Below are positions 2,376 through 49,200 of a stretch of 64,000 nt of DNA, piece after piece (the stretch's first letter is position 1; each line of letters opens with the position of its first letter). Under the pieces are notes generated by a model. The model had not been told where the DNA came from. It saw only the letters and a program-made list of their open reading frames with translations, and made no database searches. The stretch covers positions 5,609,375 to 5,673,374 of the forward strand of contig CAIIXF020000005.1 in assembly GCA_903813345.2 (NCBI GenBank). Reading direction: 5' to 3'. Source of the DNA: Owenia fusiformis. Its lineage: Eukaryota > Annelida > Polychaeta > Sabellida > Oweniidae. The translations under genes and the position numbers were made by a program.

Positions 2376-5264
2376 TCCCATGATATTCATGAAATTCAGA
2401 ATCAATATCTGATTTTGTACGTACAAAACCTGACTATTTCAAAAAATTAGTAGTATCATGGGATAAATAGTGATCATTGTCTTAGTAGTTGTTGTCCGGG
2501 TGACCTAATTAGGAGTATGTAAGTCATGCAGAGTTGGGGCCAGGTAAAGATCCGTTAGGGGGGGGACAATATGATATTTTGCTTCAATAAGTGAAATTAT
2601 GGTCCTCTCGGCTTTGTGGTCCCATTTCGGTTATCTACATGTGTATGGCCCCGATTGAATATAAGCTATGGAAAAGAGTTATGATGAGTTCTAGATTTTA
2701 TAAATCAATTAAACCCATAATTGAATTTGACCAAATAAATATCCATTGTCTTTTTATAAGCCTATTTGACTTTTTATAGCAAAATCCAAGACCCAAATAC
2801 TATCTTTGCTAAATATTACCCAGTATATCCATCTCGTTTTATCTTAGGCATGCCATACCTCTTCCGTGAGCGGAAATGTAATGAGGCCTCAATATGCCCA
2901 AAATAAAAGATAGATGTATGCTTTCCCTATTTGGCATTCCGAGCATTATTCAACCTTGCGGACTTGCTCTATTGGTGAACAATATCTTATCCATTCATTG
3001 TTTTTAGCTTTCCATGTTTGAGTTATAAAATATAATATTTTACTTTTTATATTATTTAATACTTATAATTCTACTGACTCTGACGTATGTTACTTTGAAA
3101 ATAACTTATCAATTATATTTACTGTTGTATCATCTACGTCCCTTGCGGCCATGCATGAGCATGTAGGTATCATGATGCCAAGCCGATATGTAATGGCTAC
3201 AGCTGTCAAAGGAACTCCCGACTTGACACGAACAATATAACAAAATATGCTAAATTACTATCAGGTTTAGTCGTATCTACATCTTAGTTTCCATAGCAAC
3301 ATATTTAATAATAGTAAAATGATCTCTATCGCTTTCCTAGCTTTATCATGGTTTAATGAATTCGTATCAATCATTGGTTGAACGTGATCGAAGCATTTAA
3401 GATCCATATTTTAATAAAATGATATCGTGTAGATTATCAACGATTACCAACTCTGTTGCTTTGTTAGGGACATTTTATTCTGAAGTCTTATTAGTCACAA
3501 ATGGATGAAATGTACGACTTCATATATATACAACCTTATATAACACTTTATCATACACAACCCTACACAATTTGACTTTCATTTCGAAAACACATTTTCC
3601 ACACACACACATCAAAACAAAAACAAATTGATAACCATTGAAAATCATTTGAACAACTATCAACCACATAACCATTATAAACACGATTGTGTTACATTGA
3701 CAATATCCAGCTATTACGAACAAGTAGGGACAACTGATATGTCGGCGAGGGGTGCAATGCCCTTTATAATGTCAAAGAGTCGGCATGTAATGTATTTGAT
3801 TAAATCTTTAGTAATGTCTTTAATAACAATAAAGCGATTCGCAACTCGCCTTCAATACTATAATATAATATTAATAATATTAAATACAAAAAAAGAAATT
3901 ACTAAATGTAAATGAGAAAATAAACCACAATTTTATACTTACTAATTCCATGTCTTTAGAAATATAGAAACAATGCTTTCTTCATACCAATAATTAATCC
4001 ATGCATTATCGTGTGTTCTGCTGTGATAGTAGTTGGTATTCTCCATGGTATATAGCCTTATGAACAGAAAATAGATTACACCGAGCTCACAAAATCAATA
4101 AAACGTAATTGACGATACTGTAGTCGAGCTGATTTCTCCCAAGCATAGCATTGAGCCAATGACGAATGGCTCCCGGCATTCCATTTCGATATTTTGCCGT
4201 ATATGGAGTCATGTCGTGATTACAAAATTCAAAATTAAACAGACGCCATTTTTCACTTCATGATTTGAATCGCGAGGAAGTGATCAAGATATAAGTTTAA
4301 ATCTTTTGGATTGCTATCATGAATTTACAGCCAGTTATATTAACAGACTCGATCAACACTGAACAAATTGCTTGTAGATGAAATATCGAGTTGGAACCCT
4401 GGGAGCCAACCCCCTTTGGCATTGAGCGCAGAAGCAATATTGAGAGGGTAATAATCAATGCGCATGCTCAATCAATAATTTATATAATGTAGTGTGCGAT
4501 ATTGGAACGCAAGTGCGTCATTTGTGAGCACAAATACATGATAAGTATCAAGAAAGAGAACGTGATAATGAATTACATGATCAGTGCCAGAATCATGTAT
4601 TAATTACATTCTAGAAGTTGTTTCAGCATATTGATTCCCAGAGAATATTTAGAGGTAGTTATAGCATATCAATGAAATAATTCATTTCCTAAAATTGGAA
4701 CTGTTTATTTGGATAAATACAATAATTTATTTATTAAATGTGTCAATGCAAAATGTCAACAAAATAAGTACGTACGTTATTAAAGCGTCTCTCAAAATTT
4801 AATATCTTATAGTTTTAATACTATTTCACAGTTGTCGTTGGTTTTCTTGGATAACCGAATGCATTTAGTTTTAATGCAATTCAATTAATACAGGTCGAGT
4901 TAATTTTATAACTGACAAGAAAATCAATGAAACAGCTTATATGGCATTAGAGCATGTTTTATGACATCAGACTCGAGTTATAGTAAAAAAACGTAAAATA
5001 ACACTCGTAAAAGTGTTACTATTCGTAAAGTAGGTGTTTATTTTCAAAATGGCCCCCCACATGTTTTAAATACTTATATTTTCAACTTAATCAATATCCG
5101 ATATAATATCTTATATTTGAAACATATCAAAATTACAGTTTTATATGTTTTTCCTAAAATACTGTAAAATTGACACTAAAATAGCGACCATTTTAAAACT
5201 GGCGGCCATTTTGAAAATCTTCTTTCGAGCAGAACTTGTAATCCCATTGGGCATCTACCCATAG

Positions 5265-10131: not shown

Positions 10132-10251
10132 TTATACCTGGGCAGTAATGTTAATTGATTTCTGGCTCTTGTTTTTAGTTTTTGGTTTGTGTTTGAGAGA
10201 GGTGTGAGGCCTGTGGGTACCATTGCTTGCCTGCTGTTGATTGACTCTAGC
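10132..10251 (-). CDS. Exon 46: basic C-terminal tail and probable stop (3959-3997)
   Basis: Acceptor CTTCCAG. ARVNQQQASNGTHRPHTSLK then a Lys-rich KHKPKTKNKSQKSINITAQV, stop TAA at 10132-10134. The final CAG is followed by GTATAA, which would also serve as a splice donor at 10138. If used, the protein continues in an exon not found here. An ATTAAA on the minus strand at 9918-9923, about 210 nt further on, could be the poly(A) signal, which favours ending here. Confidence 0.75.
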   Translation of the reverse strand, partial: ARVNQQQASNGTHRPHTSLKHKPKTKNKSQKSINITAQV

Positions 10252-13200
10252 CTGGAAGACATAATGGAAATAGTAAGCATAAATCCTGACATGTCATAAG
10301 TAATGGTGATTACGGTTGTCTAATCTACTATCTTAGATATTCCCAATATGGCAACTTATACAACCCCCAAAGTGATGTAAATTGCTTAGGTTAAGTAACT
10401 GAGTGTTTTTTGAATGACTGTTTATAGCATATACTGTACTTACTTGGTGTTTCCTAGAAGTGGCCACCTCTTCCATGAAACTTGCAGGTACAAGGCCTCT
10501 TACACCATTAGCCTGGAGAATATTGCAAATACATTATTGGGAATTGTAAATAAAAATCAAATACGGTAAAATCTGTGTATGTGGAACACCTTTGATACTT
10601 GTGAAAAGTGTTCCACGTGGGAGATGTTCCACTTACAGATGCAATGCTTTTATGTGAAGATTCGGACATTTCTGCAGCTTAAACATCTCTCAACAATATT
10701 TCTTATTTTTAAGATGTAAAGGCATTTGGTTGACAACAATTAAACCGTTGACACCCTGCTTTGACAGATTGTTTCATTAGCATCCCCAGACAATACCTTA
10801 CCTAGAATCAATAAATGGTAGGTTATTGACAAGGAACAATAGAGCATTAATGAGAACATGAGTGAAAGTTAACACAAAGAATACAATGCTGTACAGAAGG
10901 TCACTCAATTGTTAATAACTTCAAGTCTCGTAATTTTACAATAATAACATTGTAAAAAACAAATGAATCTCACATCACAACCATTCCGAGAAAGTTCTAC
11001 TTTAGAAGAAAACAATTCCTAGTAACAACAAGTCCCAGTATGGAATGAGAACAAGTCCTGTAACAGAAGAACAACAAGTTCCAGTCTAGAAGAACAACAA
11101 CAATTTGTTCATCATGAAGAGAAAAGGGAAATGAAAAGATACATTATTAAAGAGAGAATCAGATATAGCAAGCAGGCTAAACAAAAAATTGTTTCAATTT
11201 TAGAATATTTTTGGCTCATGTCATTCCTTGTCATGTCTATTTTCTAAAAATCACAAAAGTGCATACTTTATTCCAGGAAAACTAAAGATTTTTACAATAA
11301 TGTATTATTTTTCTATAAGAATGGTTACCATTCTTATCATTTGGGAGAATTTTTTTCACTCATTTTTGCACTTTGGATCATTAATAACTTCACCAATTTA
11401 TAACATATTGTGAATCTTTTGGGAGATATTGTATTTAATATTGTAAGGAATAGATTGGTAGGTCAATTAAAACACGTTGCTTGTAATTTTGTCACCCCTA
11501 TAGATCAGATTCTGCCTTTAAGCAATGATATATTAATAACTTAGTTTTAGTTTATCATTATTGGCTATATCCTCTAAGTGTCTCATTTGAGATGATCTAA
11601 ACAATACACTGTAGACCAGTAAATCATTTGCAACATCTTTATAACTTTTATGTTATGTTTAATGTCATAATATTCATAAGCTGATATTTACCATGAATAT
11701 TCCAGTGATTAATAGTGTATCATTGGTAGATTTGCAATTTAAAAAACACTGCAAGCTATTCAGATATTAGCATTAAAGAATATGCCATATCCTTATGAAA
11801 AAGTACAAGAACAATATTGCAACACTTAAAAATAGATCTTCGTGTAATTATCTTAATCTTTGGTTATATGTGAATGTGGTTCATTTATATAAAAAATTAA
11901 TTTTATTAAAAAGTATATCATATGTCATATGTCATTAGGCCATGTCAGGTTTTTTGAATCAAGACGTGTTTTTCCTGTATGATATACACATTTACCAAAT
12001 TAGATACTAAATATACACCATCGACCCATTTAAAAGCCTGATCTACAATGTACACATATATATTGCATTAAAAATCATGTACAGTACCTCTCCATGGTAA
12101 AATCCATCAGATCTGATTGGACCATTTGTTCTGATGATATCTCCTGTAGAAATCCTTAGTTCGGCATTTGGGTTTTGGTTGGGAGAATGTACAGAGGGCT
12201 CATAGTCATATACTGCTACAAACTGAAATGTACAGAGGGCTCATAGTCATATACTGCTACAAATTGAAATGTATAGAGGGCCCATAGTTATATACTGCTA
12301 CAAACTGAAATGTACAGTGGGTACATAGTCATATACTGCTACAAACTGAAATGTACAGAGGGCTCATAGTCATATACTGCTACAAATTGAAATGTACAGA
12401 GGGCCCATAGTTATATACTGCTGCAAACTGAAATGTACAGAGGGTTCATAGTCATATACTACTACAAATTGAAATGTACAGAGGGCCCTAGCCTTGCCTA
12501 AGTCGGTATTTTTTTACTTATCTGATCTTGAATTATTACCGCCTTGTACAATCAATACACCTGCGCTGATATTATGCAGAGTTATTCAACGGTTTCGAGA
12601 TTTCCATAATACCTACGCTATCAGTGGTGTCGCGAAACCTTATTGATTAATAGATATACGCGTGGACACGACGTGTGACTTCAGGCTGACTGACCAATCA
12701 AAACGTTATCAGGTTGGCCTGCATAAGCAAAGCAATCTTCCCGATTTGAAATTCAATGATCTGATCGATCGTTTCTTTAGAGTTACAATATATTATGTAA
12801 TTAAATGTACATAGGGAATGTAAGAGTCATTAATATAAATTAAATCATGCAGTAGATTTAAAACTGATTTCGCGATGAAAATGCAAGACCTAGTCCAATG
12901 TAGCGGGTCATGTAGTCGATCAGTGATTGAATCTCAGCCTACATGTTCATTTGAATTCAGCGATCGTTTCAACGTTTATTGTTGAAATCTTCTCACCTCC
13001 GGTTACCGATCGATGCTCCGGCATCCACTAAACTCTGATTGATATTTATCTGATAAAATATTTGTATTTTCATGATGAATTCATGCAAGATTTGTTCGTG
13101 AAAAGTCCCGGCGAAAAGTAAAAAGAGTACTTGTTTTTGACCGTGCATAATAATGAGCTAACGCTGCAGGGCCGTCGTTGATTGGTCAAATTTTACCGAC

Positions 13201-16200
13201 ATAAACATTGAGTCGGTAAAGCACGTGGCTTTCTCTTTGGTACAAGGCGGTCATAATAGAAATCAAGATAGTAAAAGAGACCGACTTGGGCAAGGCTAAG
13301 AGGGCCCATAGTCATATACTGCTACAAATTGAAATGTACAGAGGGCCCATTGTCATATACTGCTACAATTGAAATGTACAGAGGGCTCATAGTCATATAC
13401 GGCTACAAACTGAAATGTGCAGAGGATTCATAGTCATATACTGCTACAAACCGAAATGTACAGAGGGCTCATAAATTCATTGTCATAAACATGAAAATGT
13501 ACATAGGGTTCATATCTGTATACTTCTACAAACTGAAATTTACCCATGGCTGGTAATCAAATACTAGAGTACTGCTACAAACTGAAATGTACATAGGTCA
13601 TATACTGTTAAAACTGGAAACCATTTACGTCAAGACCATTACTGAACAGTTCGATTATAAATAGGGACTCAATTTTACATTTTTATAACTAGGCAACTTT
13701 TAAGCCTTTCAAAAACTCTTTATTCACGTTTATTTCATACATTATAGGTACATGCACATTATAAGTACATGCTAAAAACACAAGAATCTTACCACTCTAT
13801 TCTCCCTGGTTTCATTATGACTAGAAATGGAGGAAATGTCGGAGTCCTGTCTGTCCGAGTGTCGACTACTTGTAATAGATGGTTCTGGTAAGACATCTTC
13901 GAACAATGTGTAAACCATCTGCGAGACTCCAGCTTAAAAAGAATAGCAAGCTAGGTCAGAAAACTCCCCTAGGTCTTTGGACTGTAACAAGCATTACGTA
14001 AATCATAAATGAATTAAACTTAATTGCTCTATGATTTTTCCAATGATGCATACCTTCCGCAGTGGTTTGTATGGCAAGTGTATGTGGTCTTGTTAAGTCC
14101 TGCTTCTCCAGTAATGCTCTACTTAGGTGTGGGTTTGTCACCCTTTGCTTCAACTGGCCATCCATATAGATGTTGTATCCAGTCACAACAGTCCCATTAT
14201 TCTGGGTAAGACAGTCCAATAGAGGGCACTGCCAACTGAGAAGGAGACTGCGATCGGGGAGGATTCGTTGGATCTGAAACCTTGATGGGCTCATTGGTTG
14301 ACCTTGTACACCTGGAAGGACATTCAATGGTAGGATCATATTATTTCTTTTACCTTTAAAGCATATCTGGAGTACGCTGTAACATTTGTATTCCTTCTCC
14401 AATATTTATATGTTTAGTGTATATGGTAGTGTGTGATGAAGCAATGTACTAACATGTTCTTCAGCTTTTATAGTCTTTTGACTTACACAGCATATATATC
14501 ATTACATGTACTGTATAGTCTAATACCTTGCTACAGTCATTCCTTTAGAAATGTTAAGCATGTTAATTCCTCATAAGGGTGGATTTGATGAAGTTCTGAA
14601 GTAAGTTTACAACTGAACATATGAACACTTTCTGAGTCATGAAAATATTTTTAATCTTTGCATAGGGCCTTTAAACAAATCAACCTACCATTACTGAGTT
14701 GACCACTAGGAGCTGACTTATATTTGGCACGATTATTGTTGTTATTATTTTCAGGTAGACCATTTACTCTGCCATTGGCAAGCTGACTGGGAGTCATATG
14801 TGACTGAGGAGGACGCTGAGTGGCAGGCCTGCTTCTGCCTGCAGGGGGAGCACTGGTTGCTTGCTGGTGAGAGGTCTGGGGTATGCTACCCACATGCGGT
14901 GTACCTAGAAACCATTTACATGCAATAAGTACAAAGCTACAATAATATTCATTCAAGTAATCAGATGCCTTAGGTTATCAGGTATTACTTTATTGTTTGA
15001 CATTTAAAAGATTATTTCAATAATATCCAGGATTTCCTCTGATGATATAATTACATCCGGCAGGCATAAAGTTCACTAGTCACATTGGGGTGGAATGACA
15101 TTGTAAAAAGCTCTCAGCACAGTGTCAGATAATTGTTATTATTCTTTATGTAAAAGGTGGTTTTTATAGGATTTCCTCTGATATTGTAATTGACATTGTA
15201 ACATGCTCTCAGCCCAGTTGTCATATAATGGTTATTATTCTTTGATGTAAGAGATGGTTCTTATAGGATTTCCTCTGATATTACATTCATACATATAACA
15301 GATTAAATGTATAGTACCAGTTCCGTGAATTTTTACATCAGCTATTACAAATAATTACATTTGAAGGGATTCTCAGCTAAAGCATTTTGGGACATTTGGG
15401 GAAATGGAACTTCATGGTTGAAGCAAGCTTTCACTCTGGCTTTCAAGAGAGCAGTTGTGAACATTTTGAAAACTTTGTACAATGTAAAACGATGCATTAA
15501 CATGCAAAATGTCACCACCTGCCATTTGTTACAGATGTAGACAAAACACCAACCACCAAACATCATCCACAAGAAAGTTGGGGAGACGTATATCAATATG
15601 TCATCACTTCTGGTAGTGACATAATAAAACTGCATTTTTGTGCTAAGCATTTAACTAATTGACCTTCACCGAGCTATTTTCGACTTATCTCATGAAAAAC
15701 ATTTCCATTTCATAATGAGCTAAAAATATGGATACAGATTTATGTTTTTGGGAATTCTGTATCCTAATATATTGGGGCACATATTTAATGTAAGGTACTT
15801 GTCTAAGCCATGTTCTCTTTGTACAGTATTAACACACAGTCCCCAAGAAAACAGGGTCAATTGTAAATCAAACATAAAAATAAATGAAGAGTCCCACTCC
15901 AAGGAGTTTCCTTTGGGTTATGTGTTTTACTGAATACTGAACAAAGACATCGACCAATATGCTGATATTTAGGGATGGTTGCTTGGTGCAGTAGCATGTT
16001 TGCAGCAAAAAGAGGGGATACCCCAGGATTTATAGAGGAACCTCTCTCTATGTGTTTTGTGCTATGGGTATCCCTTCTCTCTTTGCAGCACATACAATAC
16101 CTGCATACTGCCAAATACTGAGGAAATCTTCATAAAATTCCATGGCATCTAAGAAATTCATAAATATGTTTGAGTACAACTATAACATGCACTGATAGAA

Positions 16201-19200
16201 TAAAATAGAAATAAAAAAAATGCTACAAAAGACAATGACCCAAAACCACATAAAAAAGTTGGGTAATTTATTTTAATGTGGCAACTGTCACATTATTAGC
16301 AATGGGTGGAACAAAACATGAATTGACTGATAAGTGGTCAAAAGCAAAAATGAAACTACATATAATTTCTTAAAGATTTTATAACAAAACGGATGTGAAT
16401 AAAGATTATTTTTTGTGACACATTCACAAATAATTAAAGTAATAAATAAATCAACAAAGGAAAGACTGTTAGTGAGAATATTATGCAATTAAAACTTCCC
16501 ATGGGTAGCTTCCTGTGGACATTAAATATTACCCTGGAATGATACAGTTATTAAATGGTCAATAGCTGTAATCATCATTCTAAGTTACCAATAATGTTTC
16601 ATCACAACCCATAATATTTCATTACAACCCATATCATTTCATAACAACCCATAATATTTCATCAAAACCCATAACATTTCATCAAAACCCATAATATTTC
16701 AGCAAAACCCATAACATTTCATAACAACCCATAATATTTCATCACAACCTATAATATTTCATCAAAACCCATAATATTTCATCACAACCCGTAATATTTC
16801 ATTACAACCCATAATATTTCAGCAAAACCCATAATATTTCATCAAAACCCATAACATTTCATTACAACCCATAATATTTCATCACAACCCATAATATTTC
16901 ATCAAAACCCATAATATTTCATCACAACCCATAATATTTCATCACAACCCGTAATATTTCATTACAACCCATAATATTCCATCACAACCCATAATATTTC
17001 ATCAAAACCCATAATATTCCATCACAATTAACCCATAATATTTCATCACAACCCATAATATTTCATCAAAACCCATAATGTTTCATTACAACCCATAAGC
17101 TGAACAAAAACAACAACACTCATTTCTGAAATATATCAAAGCTTTAAAACAATCCTCACCTCGAAAGTAATACAAGTTCCAAATAGAACTACTAGCACTC
17201 TTTTAAAAGGCAATTGATTCATTTTCCAAATGAACAATTTTTTCAAGCTTCAAAATTTACAGAAAATTACAGCTTTAGCATCTTTTTGTCTTAACAAATG
17301 AATCCATGTGTTTCCACCTGAATACAAAATATTCTCACTAACATTTTTTACTTAATTATTATTCCCTAATGACTGGCATACCTTGTAGCGAAACATTCAG
17401 TGGGTGGTTACTGGGACCACGTGTTAAACGATGTGAGAATGCAGGATGGGATAGCATGCCCATATTTGGAGAGGTCCTGCCCGGGGGACCATCGGCAAGA
17501 TGTGGAGAAGTAGGTGATAAGTAACCAACTAAAACAGTGAATGCAAACCAAATGGTTGAATAATGCAACAGGGGTTGTATTAGTGACAGGTAGCAGGTGA
17601 AGTTTTTTTTATACCAACTACTTATTTTGAGCAATTCTTAAACTGTTTCCATGTTAATATTATAATTTCCAATTATTTTGGGTGGTGTTTTCATTCTTTC
17701 AATCGTTATGCCTGTCATAAACTCTAATAAAACCCCTGTTTCTCACTCAAAATACAATTTGGTTAGTAATAATACAGATAAACACATTCTGCAAGTCAGT
17801 GAAACAAAGAAATTACATTCAAATTCAGAACAATTAAAACTCTGCACTCAAACTAAATGTACTTAATCCCAGGCTGAGTATATACTATTTAACTAATGCT
17901 CCTAAATATACTAAATAAATAAATAAAACCAAACAAGATAGCATATACCAGTAAGTAACACACAAAGACATCACTTCATGAAAACTGAATAGAAACATGA
18001 AACACATTATTTTGAAATGAAAGCATGATCACTGAATGTCCACTAACCTGGAGTATTACTAGTATGTGAAGGAACTGGCTGTCTAACTGATCCATTGAGG
18101 GGTGTGGCAAACTGCCTATCTTGAGTATTTGACGTAAACCGTCTCTCTGAAGTAGTAAATGGGGTTGTGAGCCGCTGCATTTGAGCTTGCATATTGAGCA
18201 CCTCTTCTGGGCAAAGAGAGCTAGTTCCAGGGGGTGGCACCAGGTGTCTCTCACGGTTGGCCCTAACTGGTACAGTAGGTGTGGAGTTGTCCGCAAGGAT
18301 GTAATTAGCAGGAACGAGACCGACACTCCCCTCTACCTCAGCCTCGTAGAAGCCTTGGCTGTCAACTGGGCCTAATACAGTCACTTTCTGACCCTCCTTA
18401 AGGGGTAGTTCTAACCTTGGATGGTGACTGTGTGCATACAGGTCAGGTTTGTAGTCAGCAATAGCAATGAATGCACCACCAGTGCTTGACACATTCACAT
18501 CAGCTTTACGTGGGTTATGTCTGTCTGTGTGTCTAGGACGTGTGCCATGATGACCAGGTTTGCGATTGTTCAGCAGAGATGAAGGTGCCGAACTGATTTG
18601 AGAGATGGTATCATGTCTGGCTCTCTGAGTATGTTCTTCTGTGTCTGTCTGGGTCTCACTGATGGATGACTCAGCAGATTCAGATCTAGCATTATGTCTA
18701 GCACTTGGCCTAGAATGTCTAGCACTTGGTTTGCTAGACCTCCTGCTATCAGGGCTGATACTAATACTGGAACTGTCAAATGACTCCTAAACAAACAAAA
18801 CATTTCTTTTTAACAACTTATTCTTTTTAACTGTAAACATACATACCAGAATCTAAATGACAAATATGAATTTTCTTCTTTAAAAACTGAGAGACAAATT
18901 GGCAATTGGCATTTCCGAATAATACTATGGTTCTTCTTTATTGCTTTAATCCCACAAAATACATCAATTTCTTAATTTGTTTTACTAGGAATACATGTTT
19001 TAAATATGTTGTTACATAAAATGAAATGGCTTATCCAAGGTATTTCGTAAACTGTTTTAAAATTATCCAAATTTTGCTAGCTCTGAGTTGAAGTTAGTGA
19101 CAATATGATATACCTGTTGTTGATGGGTTAATATGTCAAGTGGTTGTGAAGCTGGCTTCATCTGTCTTTCTCTTTCAGCTGCCTTCATCTTATCAAGCTC

Positions 19201-31200: not shown

Positions 31201-34200
31201 GAGTCTGAAGCAACCTTCTCGCATCTTCCAAGTTCTTAACTTTATCACTGAGCTCCTGGTTGCGCATGCTCAAGTCTGACACCTTTAGTAAAGCAAAACC
31301 AGCACCCAGTTTTAGGACATATTTCATATGCATATTACAGGCTGTTCAGGAAGTAAAAACATTGGCATTTTGCTATGGCAACAATAAATTCCACTTGGAG
31401 GTTATTGCCGTAATATGTCAGACATCAATTGTAAATTGAAAAATGCATTAAAGAATGACATTGATATGGGAGCAAAGTGGGTTAAATCTACTTCTTGAAC
31501 ATCCTGTAGTAGCACATTTAGTAACATTAAACCCTTGTATCCTTCTTAAAAATGTATATCCACATATTAGTACTTGTAGAATTAATATATCTCCTGAAAG
31601 GTTTCCCTGTGTATTAATTTTGGTTAGTATTTGAATAAATAAAAAATATATATGTAGTGCAAGAATATCGGAGCCAATTGCCATTTGAGACAGTAAAAAC
31701 TTCACCAAAAAGGGGCAGTGCATTTGTAAAGCATATATTTATGAATAGTAATAATAATTTATTTATTAATATCTAATCAACTTAAAACCACGCCAGTTAG
31801 TCTTCAACTATATACCTTTACATTGATAATTGATTCATAAGCCTGTTTCACTTACTTCAAACTTGTAGCTGGCCTTTTCTTCCTCAAGTTTGTGTGCCTT
31901 CTCGTGTAACTGATCATTAAGTGTTTCAAGCTGCTTGGCTCTCCTGGTTGAGTGATCACTGGTGTTTTCTAGCTCTGTGATCTGTTGCTTGTACTGGTTT
32001 TCTTTCTTCTCCTGGACCTTCATCTGGCCTCTCAAGCTGCTCTCATTGCTTGCTAGGTCATCAGAACTTCTCTCAAGATTATCAATCTTGATCTAAATTA
32101 AATGAAAAAATACGAATGTTTTTACGATCAAAATCAATGTTTGCTCATCTTATTCAAACTGCATTGACAAATTTGTGTATATGTTGTTGATGTTCCTACT
32201 ACTGGGCATTCATACATCACAACTCTCCAACCTACCTGGGTCGACCTCTTGTCCAGTTCCAGAGCATTGATCTGTTTCTTGTATGCAACTTCAGCTGTCT
32301 GCATCTCTCCCAATGTGTCTTCTAGTGAAGCCACCTGTCTGGCCAGGCTCTCCTCCTGTACCTTCCCCTGCTGCACCTGTTGCTTCAGCTTCCTCTGTGA
32401 GTCTGTCAGTTGGTTCAGCAGTTCCTCCAGGTCCCTTACTTTGTCCTCTAGGCTGTCTATCTGCCTCAACATACTGTCTTCTCTCACCTGAATAATGGTG
32501 CATATTTAATTAATTCATCTTTTTTGTGAGAATTCAACTATACAATGGACAATTATGTTAAGATTAAAACATCATCTTTGTATAGTTTACAACAATGATG
32601 TATAGTAGTCTACATTTGAGAATGAGCAAAGAATACAAAAATTCAGTATGAAAATGTTTTTCTTGTATTGTCTTGATTCCTTTGTTTGTTCATCATTTAG
32701 ATCAAATTCACTTATTTCCTTGTAATAATTTTACATTTAGATCCTCAAGGTGTTTATTTTTACCCAAATGTGTTTATTTTTACCCAGAGGTGTTTATTCT
32801 TACCTCAAAGTGTTTAATTTGCTCCTGGAGGTTCCTTTCAGACAATGTCAGTTCACGATTGGTCACATTTAGTTCATGTATGACGTTCTTGTCCTTACGT
32901 GCAATCTCATGTAGTTCTTCACGATCATGCTCCAGGTCAGACACCTGAAACATTGACAATTATATATACTAAATATTCTCTACTTCTTGAAATAATATTC
33001 ATGTTATAAGTCAAATAACTTGTTCTGATATTAAGAATATGAGAATGTACTTGTGACAAGCCTTTCTCCAGGACCAATAAGACAAATAAAAATTTAAAAA
33101 AAACATATGCTTGTGTGCTCTATACCTGAGTCTTAAGATGTTTTTCCATTGACTCTAGGTCTCTGATCCTCTGTCTGAGGATATCCTCTGGACTGTTCAA
33201 GACATCCACACTTGTGTCATCATCGTAGGATTCCAATAATTCCAGTTTGCGCTCTAGGGCTCTGAAAATGTAGAAGAGACCAAAATATGAGGCTATTTTG
33301 TATCATTTGCTCGGTATACCTAGTTTGACTGTTTTGAGTATTCCAATGCTATACCCTTGATTCTGCTTCCTCATAAGTCTTCAACAGAGGAACAATTACA
33401 TTTAACCAGCTCTTGTAATATTTAAGTAATAAAAAATGCAATATAAATTATGTTTATCAATATGGGAGACTAACTTCAGATGACTACAATAAAGTTCTGT
33501 AAATAAGAGAAATAATGTAACCTACACTTTTTCTAAAGCTTAGTCCACCAATGGACTACATCAATGAAGAATGAACAAAACAAATGGGCAATAACAATAG
33601 CTTACCTGTTAGATGTCTGCAAGTGTTCAACAGTAACAGCAAGCCCCTCAGCATCAAGCTTCCTTAACTTCTCCAACTCAGTGCTTAACTCAACTATGGT
33701 TGCCTCATGGTGTTTGATCTTCATCCTCAGTTCATCCTCGCCATCCCTATCATCATACATGAGGGATGAATCCAGGTAGGACCTCACTGGACGACGTGGC
33801 TCACTGTTGGCATTAAGGAGAGAATATTCTAGGTCGGATTCATGTTGATTAGCCACAGATAGCTGGCGCTTTAGTTGTTTTTCAGACAATTCTAGCTCGA
33901 AGACTCGTTCTTGAAGAGACTTTAGCTTAGATAATGTCTCGCAGTCTTCATTTTGTCCACTATACCGCAACTTGTTTAACACCCTTAAAACATAAACATA
34001 ACAGTCATTTTGGTTAATATCAACCATAACAGGCCTTTGGATCAATGATTTATGAACAATGGATTTGTAATTATGGCTTAATAAGGTCTATAAGGTCACA
34101 CTTTACCTCTTCTACCTTCTTACAAAAATAGGAATTCATTTTGTCAACCTGTAATGCTTCAAGGCATTTAATGTCGGAAAATGTACTTATGATCTAGAAA

Positions 34201-37200
34201 TGCGATTTTAGAATATGAGCACTGATCTGATAAGTGTGTTATGGCATCACATACCAGACCCTAGTGGACCACAGACAATAAACTAACTGATCTCAGATCC
34301 AAAGATCTCATTCACTCTACCTGGATTCATTCTGCTGTAGAGACTCAATCTGATGTTCCAAGTCTTGAATATAAGCCTTGTTTTGTGAACTTGTAGCTGC
34401 ACGAGACTCTTCTGGCTGAATCCTAGCTAGTTTGGTCTCTAGGACGAGAACTGTCTGCCTGAGGGATGCCTCTGATTGGATGAGCTCTTGCAATTTGTCA
34501 GCATAAGCACGGTCCTGTAGTGGAGAATAACCATATAACTTTTAAGTATGTACCATAAGGGTAGGAGACAAGCAAAAACATGTCTCAACATGAACACTCA
34601 GAGAACAACTTAAGCATAAGGAAAATTCCAACTACCCGAAACAATGATTTTATATCTTATATCTTTAGGATTGTCCATTATATGATGCTTTCTTATTCTT
34701 TTTTATAATGAATATCTAAGTGAATTATGTGTGCTTTCAAATATAGGGAAAAGTATATGTTGGCACAATACCTTTGTGGGACTTGGTTGTTTCTCTATGA
34801 AGATGTCCTCCATTTCCATTCCCAGTTCTACAGCTAAGTTCTCAACAGTACTTCTAAAGGCCACCAAATGCTGCTCTAAGCCATCTATCTTGCGTTTCTG
34901 CATGATGACAGACTTCTCCAGCCCCCGTACTTTCATACAGAGCTCCTCCTTTGTTAGCTGATGTAAATCGGCTTTACCATCAACGCTATCATCACTTGAA
35001 TCAACCCCATAGTTATACTGATTGATCAATGATTCAAGGTTGTTGATCTTTTGGATGTGTTCATTTTCCAATGCTTCAATTTGCTTTAGCTGTCCTTGTA
35101 GTTTAGCATTCTCTCTCTCCATTGATGTGTTTTCCTCAGAAGTGGACACTGAGTCAAATGACTGATCCTTTAGCTGTAACAGTTCTTGCTCCTTATGAAC
35201 AATATCATCCATTTGTTTGTGCATCTCTTTCTGTAGAGAATCACGCTCCTCTTGCAGTGTGGTTATCCTCTGCTGCAGAACATATTCATTCTGATGTAGC
35301 TTTGTGATATCATCAATTAGTTCATCTTTCGATTTACCATAAACTCCACCCTCAGCAATCACAAATACAGGCTCAATTTTTATACTGGGAACATTTGATT
35401 TTTTCATCTGATTTCTCAATCCCTGGATTTCTAATTCAAGTTCTGATATTTTCTTTTGATAGTCTTTTTCACATTTTCCGAGAGTTTGTATGGTATCAAT
35501 AAGTTCATCTGATGATTTCATATACAATATTTCTGAGTCTGTTTGTATGACAGGGTGTATTAAACCACCTCCAGGCTCACTGTTTAATGGACTAGACTGT
35601 TTAAGCTCACTGTTTTCAGTTTCTAAGGAATGTACACGTTTCAATAACTCTGTTGTTTCTGCTGAATTGGCACTTTCTTGTTGTTGAGCAGCTGACTGTA
35701 ACACAGAAACCTGTTCTCTTAATTCTGTCTCTGACTTTGTTAGATCTGCAACCTTCTCTTGGAGAGCAACTTCAAAGGAAGTATCAGCATGTTCTGCATC
35801 TTCATATTCTTTGATTTTGGCATTCAATGTTTTGATTTCATCCTCATGTGTTGTCTCTGAGAGTTCAAGTCGTGAGGTTAATTCAGTGTTCTTTTCATGA
35901 AGAGTATTTATTTGACTAGTTAAAGATTCATTTTCACTCTGAATTGTAACTTTGGCATTTTTGAGGGAATCCTGCAATGAAGCTATTTGAGAGTCTTTTT
36001 GTTTGAGTGATTCCTGTAGCTCACTAACAACACTTTGAAGTTCGTTTATCTTATTGCGTAACATGGTTTCAGTAGCATTCTGATCCTCAAGTCTAGAGTT
36101 AAGATCATCTTTTACTTTCTCAAGATGGTTTATTTTCTCTGTAAATGCTTTCTTTTCCTCTGTGAGGTTATTGAGGTTGGACCTGAGTTCTGAAATTTCA
36201 GCTTGTAAAGTCTCAGTTGCAATCACTTGGTCCTGTAGAGAATTCTCTTGGGATTTCACTTCTTGAAGACTAGCTTTCAAACTTTCTTTTGATTCCTCCA
36301 ATGTTTCAATTTTAGCATTTAGAATGTGTCTTTCACTTATCGCTACTTTATTAAGAGCCTCAAGTTCTGTGATTTTATCATTCAATTGTTTTTCATTTTC
36401 CTCAAGAGTAGATATTCTGTCTGTAGAATATAATTTTATTTCATTCCATTCCTTTTCTTTGTCACTATAAAGCTCCACTTGCTTACTGAGGTGTTCTTCA
36501 GAGGTTTTCAATGTCTCAACTTCAGTTGTCAGCTTATCAACTGTACCCTTTTCAGCCTCACTTCTCAGTTGGTCTCTCAAGAATTGTTCGGATATTTCTT
36601 TCTCCCTCAGTTTCTCCTGTAAATCTAACTGTTGCTTTGTAGCCTGGTTAAGTTTTTCATTTAGTGTTTCTTCCACTGTTTCATACTGACCAAGTCTTTC
36701 GAGAAGTTTTTCCTCTGATTGTATAAGTATGTCAATTTTTTCTAGTGACGCAGTGTCTGGAATTGCGTTTGGAGACTCAGTTGTGGATGAAGGTGAATCA
36801 CTCATTGGTTTCTGTTGGGCTTCAACTTTGTTCCCTAACTCTATTTCCACACCTTCTAAATATGTGATTCTATCAAACAATTTTGATTCAGAGTCAAGCA
36901 TAATATTCAACCTTTCTTCTAATTTTTCAGATTTTACTTTTTCACTTTGAAGTTGTTCCTGTAGATCACCATATGCATCTTTCAAATGTTTTAATTCATC
37001 ACTATTATTTGGCAAGGTATATGTTTCTGTAAGTCCTTTCTTACTAGCACTGTATGTATTTCCATCAATAGAATCATTGGCATTGTTATCTGGTGTAATG
37101 TCTGAGTTATTTACATTGGAATCAGCAGTATGTTCGGTGGCAGTAGGTTCGGTGATTGTATTATGTTCATCTCCTTCTTCAGTTTGGCTTAGGTGGGTTT

Positions 37201-40200
37201 CATACAATTTCCCAAGAAGTTCACCTTCTTTATTTTCTAAAGTTTCAATCTTTTCTTTCAGAGTCGTAATTTCCTGCTGTAGCTCTTCCACTGTAGAATT
37301 GTTATCTAGCACCATGTTAGTATCGTTAGGGTTTGATTTTGCACTTTCCAGAGTTTCAACTTTTTCTTTCCAAAACTGAATTTCATCTCTGTATTTTTGT
37401 TCCTTAAGTTTGAGGGCATCGTGGCTCTCCTCTAGCATGTCCAACTCCTGAACAAGACTCTGTTCAGTCACTTCTAGTTCATCTATGCGCACCTTGTGAC
37501 CTTTAGTTAGTGCATCTGGATCTCCCATGCTTTGTTCATACACTTTCAATCTGTTAAGTAAAGTTTGTTCATTTGCTTCCATCTCAGTTACAGTCTCAGA
37601 AAGTCTCATATAATTGATTTGAAGCTCATCAAATTTTTCTTGATCTTTTCCTAATGTCATAAACTTCTCCTCTTTGACATCTTCAACCTTATCTTCGAGT
37701 CTGTTGTTTTCTAGAATTAAATCATCAACTTTGGTTTTTAATGATTGTTCTGATGCCTCAAGCTGTTTCAGTTTATTTTTCAAGTCTTTTACACCACTAC
37801 CTGTTTCTAATTCAATGATGTCATTTGTCAAAACAGCAATTTTGGTCTTGAGCTCAACCTCTAGTTGTTCCTTCTCAGCTAGTTGGTCCTCCAGAGTTTT
37901 GTTCATATCTTCTAACAAGGCAGTCTTTCCCTGCAACATTTCAATCTTGCTACCATCGATATCTTCAACATTTTTCATTTTCTGTTTCAGCATATGTTCA
38001 CTGTCCTCAAACTGAACAAGCTTTTCTTTCATGCTATGGTTCTCAACCTGCAGACAGTCTATTGTATTTTTAAGCTCTTCAATATTATACAAGTCTCTCT
38101 TGAGGTCATTAAACTGAGCAAGTTGAGCAGTAAGTTTGATCTCAGTGGCTTCATTTTCAGATAACTTCTCATTTGCATACTTCTCAGATAGTTCAAGATT
38201 TTTGATTTTCTCCTCAAGTGCCTGTTCAATCAGTTCCTTCTCTTTCAACTGTTCTTTGGTTTCTTTCTCAACTCTAGTGGTTTCCTCATACTGTGCAGTT
38301 AAGGTCTCTAATTGTTCCATCTGCGAGCTGAGAGATTGTTTTAGTATGGACTCAGCCTGTTCCAAATCAGCTATACGTTCCTGCAGAGACATCTCAGTAA
38401 GACGCTGCTCCTCAAACTTTGTACGCCATATATTGCCGTCAAGTCCTGGAATAGAAAACACATTGAAAAAAGATTGGTATCACCCTCTATGGGTCCTGGT
38501 AAATTATAAGTTATCTCAAATACTTAAAATAACCAGTGTGTTCTTGAGTAACAATTTTGAGTCACATCATTGACATATTGCAACATGGTCTAGGCACAGG
38601 GATAGTTAAAGTTACAGACCATAACGTTAATGGTGATTGAACGCCATTGCCATTAGTCAAATGGAATTTCCAAAACAGACAAAACATCCAATATTTCTGC
38701 CTCTGACGTTTACATTAACCATACCTTCTTGATTTGAGTCCTCCAGCATGGATTTCTCTTCCTTAGTTGGTTTACTATGAGTTGTCTCCACCTGTTGTTT
38801 CCATATTGCTTTATTACTTTCCTCTAGTTCCTTAACCTGGTCTCTGAGACCAATGTTCATCTTCTCTAAATCAATCTCTCGCTCCTCATAGACTTGAACC
38901 TTCTCCTGTAGATTTGAGAGTTGCTCCTCCAGGTGGAACTTTTGGGCAACAAGGTCACTCTGGGCTTTCTCATGCTCCTCAACTGCAGCCTGTATGTAGG
39001 TATGTATAGTTTCATTAATATCATTTTTTCATTTTATTAATTCATCACATCAAACTTGCACTAAGGCTTAGTATTTTATCTCTGATGAGCATGATTTTTT
39101 AATTTTACCCTCAATATGATGACTATGTATAATTTCTCTTCCAACTTTAGCTTAGAATCATGAAATATATGTTAAGGCTAGTAAACACTCCACCTATCTG
39201 GGATATTAAATAAGGGTAATAAAAATTGGTAGCTTGCAATGGTACTCTTGTCATGTACTTTAGTTGCAATAAAATCTCAGATACTGATGATTTTTCAATA
39301 TAAAGGGATGAAGCGATTATGTACTGACCGTGAGTCTGACTAGACGTGTTTCAGCATCTGTATCTGTTTGTTGTGTCACATCCTGAAGCTGAGATTTCTC
39401 CCACTGTAGAGACAGTACTTTGTCCTGTAGTTCCCCAGCAAGCTGTTCAAGCTGTTGAATACGCTGTAATATGAAAGTATGTTTATTATCCCATGTATGC
39501 AACTAAGGACAGTGACAACTCATCTTTTACTTTTAAACATCATATTTAATCCCCCGAAATAAACTGGAAAATGGATGCAACACATCCTGAGAGTGAAAAT
39601 TTATTCATCAAATGCAAATGCATTTTTGTACAGTATACAACCTTATTTCTCGCTCATTTTTCCTTTTTCTTCACACTCCAGTTGTATTTTGATACAATAT
39701 GAAACAAAATTTGATATTTTTGTTCATCAAAAAATAAAGTTTTAATGAAATACTTACATTCTCTGATGATTTGATTTTGCTCATCTTCTCGTTGAATAAA
39801 TCTGCCTCCGTATCTCTACCTTCCAGGTAGCTTGAGCGCTGGCGTTTCAGCTTCTCTATCTCAGACAATAGGTGGTTCTCACTCTTCTGTGTCACATCTA
39901 GCTGGTACGTCAAAACAGCTTCACGCTGTTTACTATCAGACACATCCTTCTCGAGTTGTTCTACTTTCTGTGAAAATATAATAAAGAAATAAGAGAAGTT
40001 TACAAGGTTTGAGTGTTTTTTCAATTAATCCCCACAATGGGATGGACAGAGCTGATGGACATTGAGCTAAAAGAATAACAGAATGGACTTACCTGAAGTA
40101 CACTTTACATGTACAGTCAATATTTTCACACATACATATATTGATATGTATGTAAAGATAGTTTTGCCATTATTCAGTGGTAAAGTATATATAGTATCAA

Positions 40201-43200: not shown

Positions 43201-46200
43201 AAATGTTTATTTGAATTACATGAACCCTTTTGAACATAATGTCTGACATCTACTAAAGTATACTTGTAGGCATACCTTAACCTTTCATGTTACTTTTATG
43301 TTTTTTGAATAATTAACATACCAGTTTTTTATGCCCATGTACTATATAATGACTGATTTTCTCAGGGGGTATAAGTACACATAAAACTCATAGAAGAGGT
43401 CAGTAAATCATCTGTTTATTGGCCCTATACTTAAATAAACTACCCTTTTCAATAACTGACATTACTTCTTAAAAGAGAGCTTCAACTGCGGTCATTTAAG
43501 AGAAGACAATTTATTGTTCTAGCTTTAACCAATCAGATTTGGTTGATCAGAATTAAGTTTAAAGCGCTTTTGAGAATCAAAATTATAATGAAATTAAGAG
43601 TCAGAGGATAGAAATTATTAAAGGCTTTAGGGTATAGATTGAATTTGAATTGAACATACCTGATACAATTCAATAATACACTCAAAACACTCAAAAATAT
43701 TGCATTGAACTTATAAGTGTTGACATTATTCTGTTTTTCAGCTATTGAGTCAAAACATATGTGAATAAATCATAGGATTGCCAATTTAAATGCAGAAATG
43801 AATACCCCCACCCTAATCACTTTAATCTTAAGTAAACATTAAAATATTTGACAAAAAAAACTGTCCTGACAAACATTAATCCTATCTAATAATGATGTTG
43901 TTTTTATGATTATCTCACCCCCCCCCTCCCAATGTTCTCGTGATTCAGTAATATTTTACACCCTTTCATGTTTATTTGAAATTGTTAGATAATATGAAGC
44001 ACTTACCTCATAAAAGCCAATACATAGTGTATTGTAATAGTATACTATAGTATTCTTTGTAAAGTAATCAATTATGCTACAACAAAATGCTCTCTTACGA
44101 TGATCTTCATTTAGCCGTTAGCGATCATTAACACTTTTTACAGCTTCAATCAATGCCTGCTATAGTCAATTCTTGAATTTACCTATTGGTAGAGCCTTCC
44201 AAATCAAGTCACCTGTCATTTTATCCAATTCTATCTATTCTAAATTGATATGATCTTGAACTTTTTTCAACATTTTATGTTTCTATACACTATACAAATG
44301 TAGTATCCATATAAGGCATGTCTAAACACTGGCAATAGCTCCTATAACTGATACTATGATATAGTCACTACTGCAAGGTACTACACTGTGCCCTGTACAG
44401 TCTATCAAAATTGATTAAGTACTTCAGTTAACATATTTCAAAAATTAATTTCAGTGCATTTTTTCTTACAGTACATAAAAATGAATACTTTATACAGACA
44501 TACTCATGCAGTGCATACACTGTGACATGTAAACTGGGATACTATATTTATATGTGCATGTTTTCTCTCTATATGGTATGTACTTTATAACCTTTTCCCC
44601 ATTGGGAATAAAAATTTAAAAATAACATGCGGTGGATGTAAAAAAAACTTCAGTTGCCAATGAATAAGTCTTCATTACCAATTCTTACAATTGATTATGA
44701 AAAAAAACAACAAAAAGTGATTTGATTCTTTTAAAAGCTTAAATATGAAAAAATAAATTCCAATTTTTGAAATCATGTATGTCTATATTTGTATTTTGTA
44801 ACACATATGATGTACAGTATACTGAGTGCTAAATTCAAGGGATTAAATAAACCAAGTATTTGTGTGCAAATTAAAAGTTTTGAAGTAACAGAAAATATTT
44901 TTTAAAGTATTTGATTGTATATTACCTGTGCTGCACTGTCCAACATCAGCTGAGCTTGCATCAAGACAGAACGCTCCTCACTTGTAGTTGAGCCATCCTG
45001 AAAATACATCCAGGAGAATAGGGTATATTTCATGATTATGGGATAACCAAATTGGTCAGGATATATGATTTTTACCATTGGATATCATTTGAAGAGCTCT
45101 TTGCCATAGAAATAGTTTATTTCAATCCTTTATTATTTCTTTCAGTATCTCAGTGGTGTATTTTTATATTTTTACAAAATTACACATTATACTGTGCAAT
45201 CTGCATTATTCATCATCGCTTATTTCCGCATGTAACAGCTAAATTTTTGCATATTTTTCCCTAGACTATTTTCTCATCAATTCTTTTTTAGAGTATATTT
45301 CAGGAAAACAGACATGAGAGATTTGCATGACATGCACACAAATGTGCTTAGGCGTTACTTATTTAATGCTCATTTAATTACTAAGTGAAATAATCACTAT
45401 CATTAGTGTTGCTTTAAATACAGCTAACCAATGTCCATAAGGTATCAAAATTAGCACTTAAATTACTATTCAAATCCATTTGCAAAGATTAAAATAATTT
45501 TTACTTTTCAAATAACCTACTTCACATACTACAATTGTGAGACAGTCTATGGTCCTTACAAAGTCAAAGCAAAGACACCAGTTCTTCAAAGAGTAAAAAG
45601 ACCGAAAAATATGGTTTAAAAATATTGAATATACAGGGTGATCCAGAAGTAACGTCAAAGACATTGTAATTTCAAAAGTATTCATCAGATCTTCATGAAA
45701 TTTGGTATACATGTACCCACAACATTTCTGAGTTACCATCTCAAAGATTGGAATTCAATCATTTCATTGGTTGAAATTATGGTTGCTATAGTAACCCGAT
45801 ATCGCGTAACCCGGGGCAAATTGAAGAGAAACCATAACGTTTTTGTGAATTTCTCTAATTTAAAAAGTCAGTAACATTTGAAAATGTTCATTGTTTGTTT
45901 TCTATGATTTTTATATTTGTTGCCATGGTAACAAATATGTAATAGTTGTGATGTCACAATAGGCATTCATAAAAAGCTTTCAATTTCTTTGAATTGCTTC
46001 CATCATCCATGACAAATACTAACATGACCAAGGACACTAACCCACCCAATTCAAGATGGCGCCAAGTCAGAGTAAAATAGAGCAAAGAACAAACATTAAG
46101 TTCTGTGTAAAGTTGGGGAAAGGTGTAAAAGAGACTATAAGACAGATAAAGAAGGCATATGGTAAAGCTGCCATTGCTGAGAGAAACATTTACAGGTGGT

Positions 46201-49200
46201 TTAACAAGTATTCCAGTGGATATGATGAAGTGGTAGACAAGCAGCGAGGAGGCAGGCCAGTGTCGTCATTCGATGATCAAACCATCAAAGCAATTGAAGC
46301 TGATGTTATGGACAATAGGCAAATTTCTATCAGAGAATTGGCTGAAAAACACGATCTGAGCTATGGGACTGTGCAACGGATACTGACAAAGAACTGTCTG
46401 TTAAAGAAGGTGTCTGCTAAATGGGTGCCGCATGACTTGACACAGGAGCAGAAAGACCGGCGTGTTAAGGCTTCAAGGGACTTTCTTGCAAAATATCGGA
46501 GAGATGGAGATGACTTTCTTAACAAGATCATTACGAGTGACGAATCATTGCTATCATTCTACATCCCAGAGACCACGCAACAAAGTTCATCGTGGAAACA
46601 TGACAACTCCCCAACACCAACCAAGCCTAAAATAGTACCAGGAATTCCACAAAAGAAACAAATGGTTGTGACATTCTTTGACATTAGAGGAATGGTGTTA
46701 ACCCATTTTGTTCCCATTGGCCAGAGAATTAATGCCGTTTACATTGCAAAGGTAAGATATCATTTGTTCTAATAATACATCATACTGTGAATTTTATTTT
46801 TAAATTAAAGTATTTAAATGTTGTTCACTGTCAATATAATTATAACTCCATGGCCATGATTCAAATCCAAATCCAATCAATGAAACAACTGGTTTAACAA
46901 CCATTAAACATTTGTTTTTCAGGTTCTGAAGCGTGATCTTCAACGTTCCCTGAGGAAAAAGCGTCCCGGACATCTGCAGCAGTTTATCTTGCATTGGGAC
47001 AATGCCCCTACGCACACTGCAATCCTGACCAGCAACACAGTCCAAACACTTGGATTTCAACAACTTGAACATGCCCCTTATTCACCTGATCTTGCCCCCA
47101 GTGACTTTTATTTGTATGGGGAACTAAAAAGAAACCTTAGTGGAAATAATTTTCAATCCTGTGAGGAATTGAAAAATGCCGTAGTACTAGCCCTACAAGG
47201 AATGAGTTCTAATGGATTTAATTCTGTGTTCAAGGAATGGGTATCCAGACATGAGAAATGTGTTGCAAATGGTGGCAATTATGTAGAATGAACTATTATT
47301 AGTAACTGTGCAATAGTATGATTTATATTGTTGTGAAATAAAATGTTGAGGATATAACAATTTCAGATCTTGTTGATATTTTGAGATTACGCATTACACG
47401 TTAAGTAATTTGCCCCGGGTTACGCGATATCGGGTTACTATAGCAACCATAATTTCAACCAATGAAATGATTGAATTCCAATCTTTGAGATGGTAACCCA
47501 GAAATGTTGTGGGTACATGTATACCAAATTTCATGAAGATCTGATGAATACTTTTGAAATTACAACATCTTTGACGTTACTTCTGGATCACCCTGTATAT
47601 TGCTCACGACCAAAGGTGGTAAACAAAATGCAATGCTAGAATAGCCTTGATATTCATATTCAAATGTAATATACCAGACTAATTATACTAAATAAATGGT
47701 TATAAATGGTTAAAATAAATGAGAGTAAATGACAAGAGTATTTGTAAATTACCATACCATGTTATATGAGGTAGTTAAAAGGCAACAAAGGTGCCAAGTT
47801 AATAGACTTGATCATCCAAATATTGTAACTGTCATGCAACTCCTCTCCATACAGATATCTGGATGTCTTGTTACTAACAGCACTTTATTCCAGTTCTTAT
47901 CCGACATAAACTGGTGATAAATGCATATTTCTGTTGTCCACTTTGCAGGATCTAAGAGTTGTTTTACTCTCACCCTCTATTTTTTTTATTTAAATTTTTC
48001 TCATTTGTTTTATTCCTGAATTGAAGTACTTTGGAATAATAATCCACTGGCAGATAAATAGCAATAAGATAATCAAAATGTATGTTTGGTTTCAACTGCA
48101 ATTTAGTACCACTCATGTTCCAATCAATGATTTTTATAGTTAAAGTTTGTTTTTGTACTTGTCCTAATCCTAACCCTCATGTGGGTGCATGTATATCCCT
48201 GCGGTGAGTAACTTATTGTAAAAATATATCCTTAAATCCTGAATGCTTTATAATCAGATCAGACAAAAGCAAAAAGTGAGAAATCATAGCCATTACCCTT
48301 CCAAAAATTCACCATCTGACATTTGTTACTATCTATTGAAAGATGAGACCAAAACCTTTTTACATGATACATGTACCTTTATACATAGATTTAGACACCA
48401 ACATTTTCCAGTGTTAACCAAGATATAATACTCATAAAAATGGGAACTTTAGAATAGGCATTTTGTGAATCATTTCACAATGATTCTGCATGAGTTCTTG
48501 CAATTGACTCCAATATTGAAAACTCATCAATAATGCATGCAGCCAGAGGTAGGTAGATGATGATTACAGTTGATCAGATTCTAAGCACCTTGATCCCTGG
48601 GGTGAAAAACACATGCGAAAAACATATCAAATATCATGTAGGGTATCTAGAGAACATTAATGTTTCATCACATGCATATTGTACCATGATAAAAAATGAA
48701 GTTATAAAAAATCAAAATCATTATTGCAAGAGAAAATGTGAGCAAATTTTCTGGCATATGTATGTAGATTCCAGGCCAGAATGCTTTAATTAATTTAGTA
48801 GCATAACCTTGGCGGATTGCCAGCTCACATTATTAATTAATTAGGTATACACCTACTTCATATTCTACCAAACATGTAGTCTATAAACATATACCGGCTC
48901 ATATAGTTTACTCAGGTTAATACTCCATCTATTAATTGTATTTCTGATTAAAATCATATCCAGGGTCGTTTATATCTTAATAATATTTCATGTGAAGTAA
49001 AGATGTCATTAATTTTATACCTGAATTGAAACGTCATGTGCATTGACACCAATTTTTAGAGCTATGTATAACAATGAATTCTTTGCTTCACGATAGCTTC
49101 AACTCACAATCAATTTCATTGTTAAAATCTTGGCTATTTAAAATTATCCAAATTCAAGTTAGGTTATAAGAACTCTTTAGATCAAGGAATTTCAAACGAA

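Follow-up and report, generated by a model that had tools for sequence, protein, structure and literature searches.

Minisatellites that carry tandem copies of an exon-intron boundary, termed mirages, have been described in lancelets and may be general in cephalochordates (PMC3087553). Amphioxus examples occur in Adh3, the globins BflGb6 and BflGb9, PGBD5 and troponin C, and these boundary arrays are reported without disturbance of splicing (PMC3087553, PMC3902484). A human minisatellite with multiple splice donors is reported in IFI6 (6-16) (Turri et al. 1995, as cited in PMC4526556). Here, we analyzed a 64-kb window, the whole stretch of DNA at contig positions C5:5609375-5673374, whose minus strand carries a RIM-binding-protein (RIM-BP) gene, and searched the 498-Mb genome it belongs to. 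A 41-bp tandem array was found at the acceptor of exon 44 of this gene. We consider it likely that this array is a near-neutral, acceptor-side mirage minisatellite that has grown by tandem duplication of the exon 44 boundary.

On the minus strand, the 41-bp unit starts with TTCAG and continues with the 36 nt that open exon 44 (TTTGTAGCAGTATATGACTATGAGCCCTCTGTACAT, FVAVYDYEPSVH). A preliminary description of this locus, whose exon numbering is kept here, had equated the unit with the exon 44 acceptor plus the start of its coding sequence, and both Tandem Repeats Finder (TRF) and the minus-strand reading confirmed this. TRF split the array into one block at 12186-12486, with 7.3 copies and 90% matches, and another at 13299-13543, with 6.0 copies, and 14 further unit copies, numbered -1 to -14 from the exon, were counted upstream of exon 44. 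The gene finder over-predicted exons (163), and 32 acceptors chosen by coding score were used together with exons 43 and 44. When the 34 exon starts of this set were compared with the window by BLAST, further copies were found for exon 44 only, and a genome search with the array matched nothing but the array's own two blocks. As a repeat, the 41-bp array is far beyond chance. The same description had placed it at 12223-13615; the repeat is indeed there, and a DNA transposon that had gone unmentioned fills most of the interval.

As in mirages, the tandem repeat runs across an exon-intron boundary with its extra copies lying in the intron, many but not all copies retain the splice dinucleotide (CAG in 7/14), and the central copies are homogenized while the edge of the cluster has diverged. 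Copies -1 to -10 diverged from the unit by 0-0.10 and copies -11 to -14 by 0.19-0.31, and the farther a copy lay from the exon, the more it tended to have diverged (Spearman 0.69, p = 0.006). This gradient, together with SH3 residues that are common to RIM-binding proteins in the Protein Data Bank (PDB), bears out the earlier view that the exon is the source and the array the product; the reverse, the array as source of the exon, was ruled out by the SH3 conservation. We conclude that the RIM-BP array is a well-preserved acceptor-side mirage minisatellite, probably outside the lineage in which this kind of array was first described.

The transposon is flanked by a 9-bp target duplication, AGAGGGCCC, with its left copy at 12480-12488 and its right copy at 13299-13307. 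A genome search with the element gave 1415 candidates, and the 40 that were scored, the element itself included, showed 93-100% identity, a few of them being partial matches. Twenty-three placements were examined and one partial placement was set aside; among the 22 left, four of which are the present insertion site seen in different loci, the target duplication was exact over 9 bp in 21 and 8 bp long in one. The transposon inserted after the array had formed. Within the family (loci L004-L022), the copies at L011/L012 and those at L014-L016 have common target duplications and are therefore probably duplicated loci.

In the course of events that we propose, a segment made of 5 nt from the end of intron 43 and 36 nt from the start of exon 44 would have been duplicated in tandem, and further duplications would have followed. 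Upstream copies would have joined the intron while the last copy stayed on the exon, so that the protein would have remained unchanged, and the transposon would have landed in the array afterwards. Most likely, the original acceptor stayed at the far end of the array (13613), and the present one is a copy that has to draw its branch site and pyrimidine tract from exon-derived sequence. Using a matrix built from the 32 acceptors of the RIM-BP gene, the far-end acceptor scored 5.1 and the exon 44 acceptor 3.2; in a leave-one-out control, 30/32 acceptors reached 3.2 and 23/32 reached 5.1. A yTnAy branch motif was found between -50 and -12 in units -10, -12, -13 and -14, and none was found in that interval for exon 44, units -1 to -9 or unit -11. 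Since only 19/32 control acceptors have the motif, its lack is not rare among working sites. One substitution is exclusive to units -5 and -2, both of which also carry GGG...CAA, and the run of units -5, -4 and -3 resembles that of -2, -1 and 0, the pattern expected from a 123-bp duplication. Array growth thus probably included a three-unit step.

The 14 upstream acceptors differ in state: units -2, -3, -5, -9, -12, -13 and -14 read CAG, units -1, -4, -6, -7 and -8 read CAA, unit -10 reads CGG, and the acceptor of unit -11 is lost. Hence many junctions keep a CAG acceptor, as had been claimed, and the accompanying statement that about half were changed to CAA holds among the well-kept units (5/10) but not over the whole array (5/14). 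Unit -3, a CAG copy, is identical to the exon 44 acceptor over 73 nt (51 nt upstream and 22 nt downstream), which makes this decoy locally indistinguishable from the real site. Such sites could serve regulated non-productive splicing, in which CAG decoys tuned by their CAG/CAA state would lower the amount of full RIM-BP or remove its last SH3 domain. We regard this as very unlikely, even though seven CAG acceptors are left, one of them matching the real site, because CAA acts as a hitch-hiking variant. CAA accompanies a GAG to GGG change in 4/4 GGG modules and is present in 1/6 modules that lack this change (Fisher 0.048, for copies that are not independent), which fits a single change spread by array turnover rather than repeated silencing; the CAA of unit -8 is perhaps a second event. 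In units -10 to -1, only one of 13 distinct substitutions falls in the two AG columns, compared with 0.6 expected for two columns out of 41 (an apparent change that stems from the loss of one base where unit -8 begins was left out of the count). Twelve substitutions lie in the exon part of these units, ten of them amino-acid-changing and two synonymous; as 84 and 24 of the 108 possible changes are of these kinds, no coding constraint is seen in the copies.

Arrays of the same type were found at other exon edges. A kinesin acceptor array (L050, C2:23265900-23269900) has a 159-bp unit in 17.9 copies that are 97% alike, and all 17 upstream copies keep CATAG (matrix scores 4.2-6.4) and an in-frame stop ahead of the real exon. 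A myosin acceptor array (L047, about 4836-5121), in a gene that we take to be of class I, has a 61-bp unit in 4.5 copies, the first unit being shortened; CAG is intact in 4/4 of its upstream copies (8.5-14.9), and the frame of each runs into a stop. The motifs by which these copies were listed contain AG, and the even spacing of the copies (158-159 bp and 61 bp) excludes a missed broken copy. On the donor side, a degenerate myosin array (L043, about 3838-4260) has three extra GTAAGAGC copies, and a second array of the RIM-BP gene spans the donor of another exon (Table 1). That two sister arrays keep every acceptor argues further against regulated splicing. The earlier proposal that the change from CAG to CAA silences decoys is not supported, given these intact sister acceptors (17/17 and 4/4), the single AG substitution among 13 and its linkage to GGG.

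Translation from the upstream acceptors led to a premature stop in 14/14 cases, 15 codons on for six acceptors and after 1 to 32 codons for the others; units -8 and -14 stop after one codon (TTG TAG and TTT TAA). The preliminary description, which had predicted a stop about 15 codons after any upstream copy, was thus correct about the stop, and its distance applies to 6/14. Messenger RNA decay is expected where a stop precedes a later junction by about 50 nt or more. All 14 stops precede the exon 44 donor by 128 nt or more, well within that rule, and messages from upstream acceptors would be destroyed. The expected decay at every reading also speaks for regulated non-productive splicing. Incipient intron gain, or the making of a new exon through tandem duplication, which has been proposed for amphioxus globins and demonstrated in a potato gene, is extremely improbable here: outside the transposon, the array offers no open frame (its three frames contain 10, 15 and 11 stops), and AGGT, the motif from which both GT and AG would be drawn, is absent from the 41-bp unit. 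Use of the array as micro-introns was ruled out for the same lack of AGGT and the stops in all frames.

How the real acceptor is chosen may be explained by exon definition, under which the spliceosome most likely pairs the exon 44 donor with the nearest acceptor. Upstream acceptors, which have no near donor and lead to stops, would be seldom used. Because unit -3 equals the real acceptor locally and 17 intact kinesin copies, 97% alike, stand before the real one, local sequence cannot decide between such sites, and nearness to the donor is proposed as the selector. We infer that the array is near-neutral, that exon definition makes the splice choice and that stop-bearing messages decay.

The frequency of boundary arrays was surveyed at 143 distinct exon edges in the genome, and four carried one. 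Two of these were among the 34 acceptors and 35 donors of the window. Another two were among the 52 edges of 26 myosin exons found with Pfam, eight of these edges having another match nearby, and none was seen at the 24 edges of 12 more myosin loci; one exon is common to both myosin sets, and 37/92 myosin matches were examined. Myosin edges were approximated by the points where Pfam matches end, with 40-60 nt of flank on either side, and are not mapped splice sites. The kinesin array is not part of the survey and came to light through the regular spacing of kinesin matches. Six of the eight myosin edges with a nearby match were rejected: L046 was read and is intronic only, and five were judged by coordinates (inverted, distant or scattered). 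Repeats at L033 were judged intronic from their coordinates. Within the window, 2/24 tandem arrays touch any of the 69 edges, compared with 2.15 expected under random placement (30 TRF rows were merged by hand into these 24 arrays, the two blocks of the 41-bp array being counted separately). Edge arrays are neither enriched nor depleted there, which suggests that they are tolerated, and this random rate is a further point against regulated splicing. Separately, twelve irregularly spaced matches to the same stretch of the myosin head (positions about 18-84) were observed at C9:37986009-37994334, perhaps a large alternative-exon set of a muscle myosin.

Several observations weigh against a near-neutral array. 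The exon 44 acceptor is one of the gene's weakest, scoring below 30/32 others, and is outscored by the far-end acceptor (5.1 vs 3.2), both of which would favour mis-splicing; the weakness of the exon's own acceptor would also suit regulated splicing. The kinesin and myosin genes that carry the sister arrays are only putatively functional. Moreover, the unit directly before the exon (-1) is CAA, as silencing predicts, and at least three kinds of lesion (CAA, CGG and loss) occur among the 14 acceptors of the whole array. These last two points would agree with harmful decoys of which some were knocked out by selection, CAA at unit -1 and CGG or loss further up, with no regulation involved. We consider such purging unlikely, as units -2 and -3 have intact CAG, CAA is only 1/13 distinct substitutions in units -10 to -1, and the sister arrays have 17/17 and 4/4 intact acceptors. 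The regulatory reading is not supported either, and amphioxus arrays are reported not to disturb splicing (PMC3087553, PMC3902484). A near-neutral mirage minisatellite accordingly stays the preferred explanation of the RIM-BP array.

The identity of the gene was established from the exons around the array (Table 1). Exon 44 encodes the first half of the gene's last SH3 domain, and its first 36 nt form the exon part of the repeat unit. Joined exons 44 and 45 matched RIM binding protein 2 (2csi, E = 7.1e-19) and other RIM-binding-protein SH3 chains, as well as the Pfam family SH3_2 (E = 1.3e-9), and a coding segment just upstream, within 13956-14405, matched Ig_RIMBP2. A protein search of the genome with the exon 44/45 SH3 domain gave four matches, three in the RIM-BP gene and a weak one on C12. 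An unbroken reading frame of 1258 amino acids, coiled-coil-like by eye, lies at 34703-38479 on the minus strand and is probably one giant RIM-BP exon. The plus strand carries a Mariner/Mos1-like transposase frame (PF17906, PF01359) at 46041-46772, within the span of the gene. A minisatellite with 25 copies of a 20-bp unit was also observed at 16587-17098, in a stretch with strong GC skew. Amphioxus was considered as the source of the DNA and rejected; the GC content of the window is 34%, and that of amphioxus is higher. The Pfam family GFP (PF01353) had no match in the genome, but it matched no control genome either, so that this negative carries no weight by itself; the mollusc haemocyanin domain (PF14830) was likewise unmatched in the genome and the controls. 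COX1 was also absent although 8/14 control genomes matched it, and the assembly therefore probably lacks the mitochondrial genome. One muscle myosin exon was closest to scallop myosin entries (2ec6, 2os8, 1dfk; 228-229 bits), but a squid entry (3i5f, 204.6 bits) did no better than human cardiac myosin (205.0 bits), which makes this weak evidence of kinship.

Table 1. Features at and around the RIM-BP boundary array (window positions)
Feature	Position	Strand	Remarks
Exon 46	10138-10251	-	downstream of the predicted premature stops
Exon 45	10444-10512	-	second half of the SH3 domain
Exon 44	12088-12222	-	135 nt, phase 0 at both ends; SH3 half
TTCAG acceptor of exon 44	12223-12227	-	presumed used site
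Exon-proximal block	12228-12488	-	units -1 to -6 and end of unit -7
DNA transposon	12489-13298		810 bp, terminal inverted repeats (TAGCCTTGCC...); inserted within unit -7
Distal block	13299-13613	-	start of unit -7, then units -8 to -14, with decay growing towards the far end
Probable original acceptor, GGTTTCCAG	13614-13622	-	matrix score 5.1
Branch-point-like CTTGAC	13629-13634	-	its A 17 nt upstream of the old exon start
Exon 43	13793-13933	-	phase 0 end at GTG/GTAAGA; 5' end read by eye
RIM-BP donor array	32746-32820	-	20-bp unit, 3.8 copies; spans the donor of the exon ending at 32804 (TTTGAG/GTAAGA)

Boundary arrays provide ready-made experiments on how the spliceosome chooses among near-identical acceptors, and they show how the coding sequence of an exon can become the branch and pyrimidine region of an intron. 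Five such arrays in one probably lophotrochozoan genome suggest that they originate wherever minisatellites are abundant. It is conceivable, although quite unlikely, that boundary minisatellites as common as this (4/143 edges) form a genome-wide set of decoys, part of which, including those of RIM-BP and kinesin, leak measurably into stop-bearing transcripts, so that protein output would depend on a repeat number varying between individuals. A literature search, judged from titles and the openings of abstracts, brought no mirage-type array outside lancelets to notice, and the kind probably extends beyond them.

Among described systems, the creation of an intron and exon by a single duplication likewise involves tandem duplication across the 3' end of an intron and the 5' part of an exon. 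However, one event there yields a new intron and a new exon, whereas the RIM-BP array has many short copies and no open frame. The IFI6 minisatellite lies on a splice site and resembles the donor array of the RIM-BP gene; it is on the donor side, and two of its downstream units are reported as used donors, whereas the main RIM-BP array is acceptor-sided and its upstream copies are potential acceptors. The closest likeness is to the amphioxus mirages. These are also minisatellite-like tandem copies of an intron-exon boundary, on the acceptor or the donor side, in which AG or GT is kept in many but not all copies and a homogenized centre contrasts with an excluded edge. The RIM-BP array differs from them in its gene, in a 41-bp unit with only 5 nt of intron, in being split by a transposon, and in its probably non-lancelet genome.

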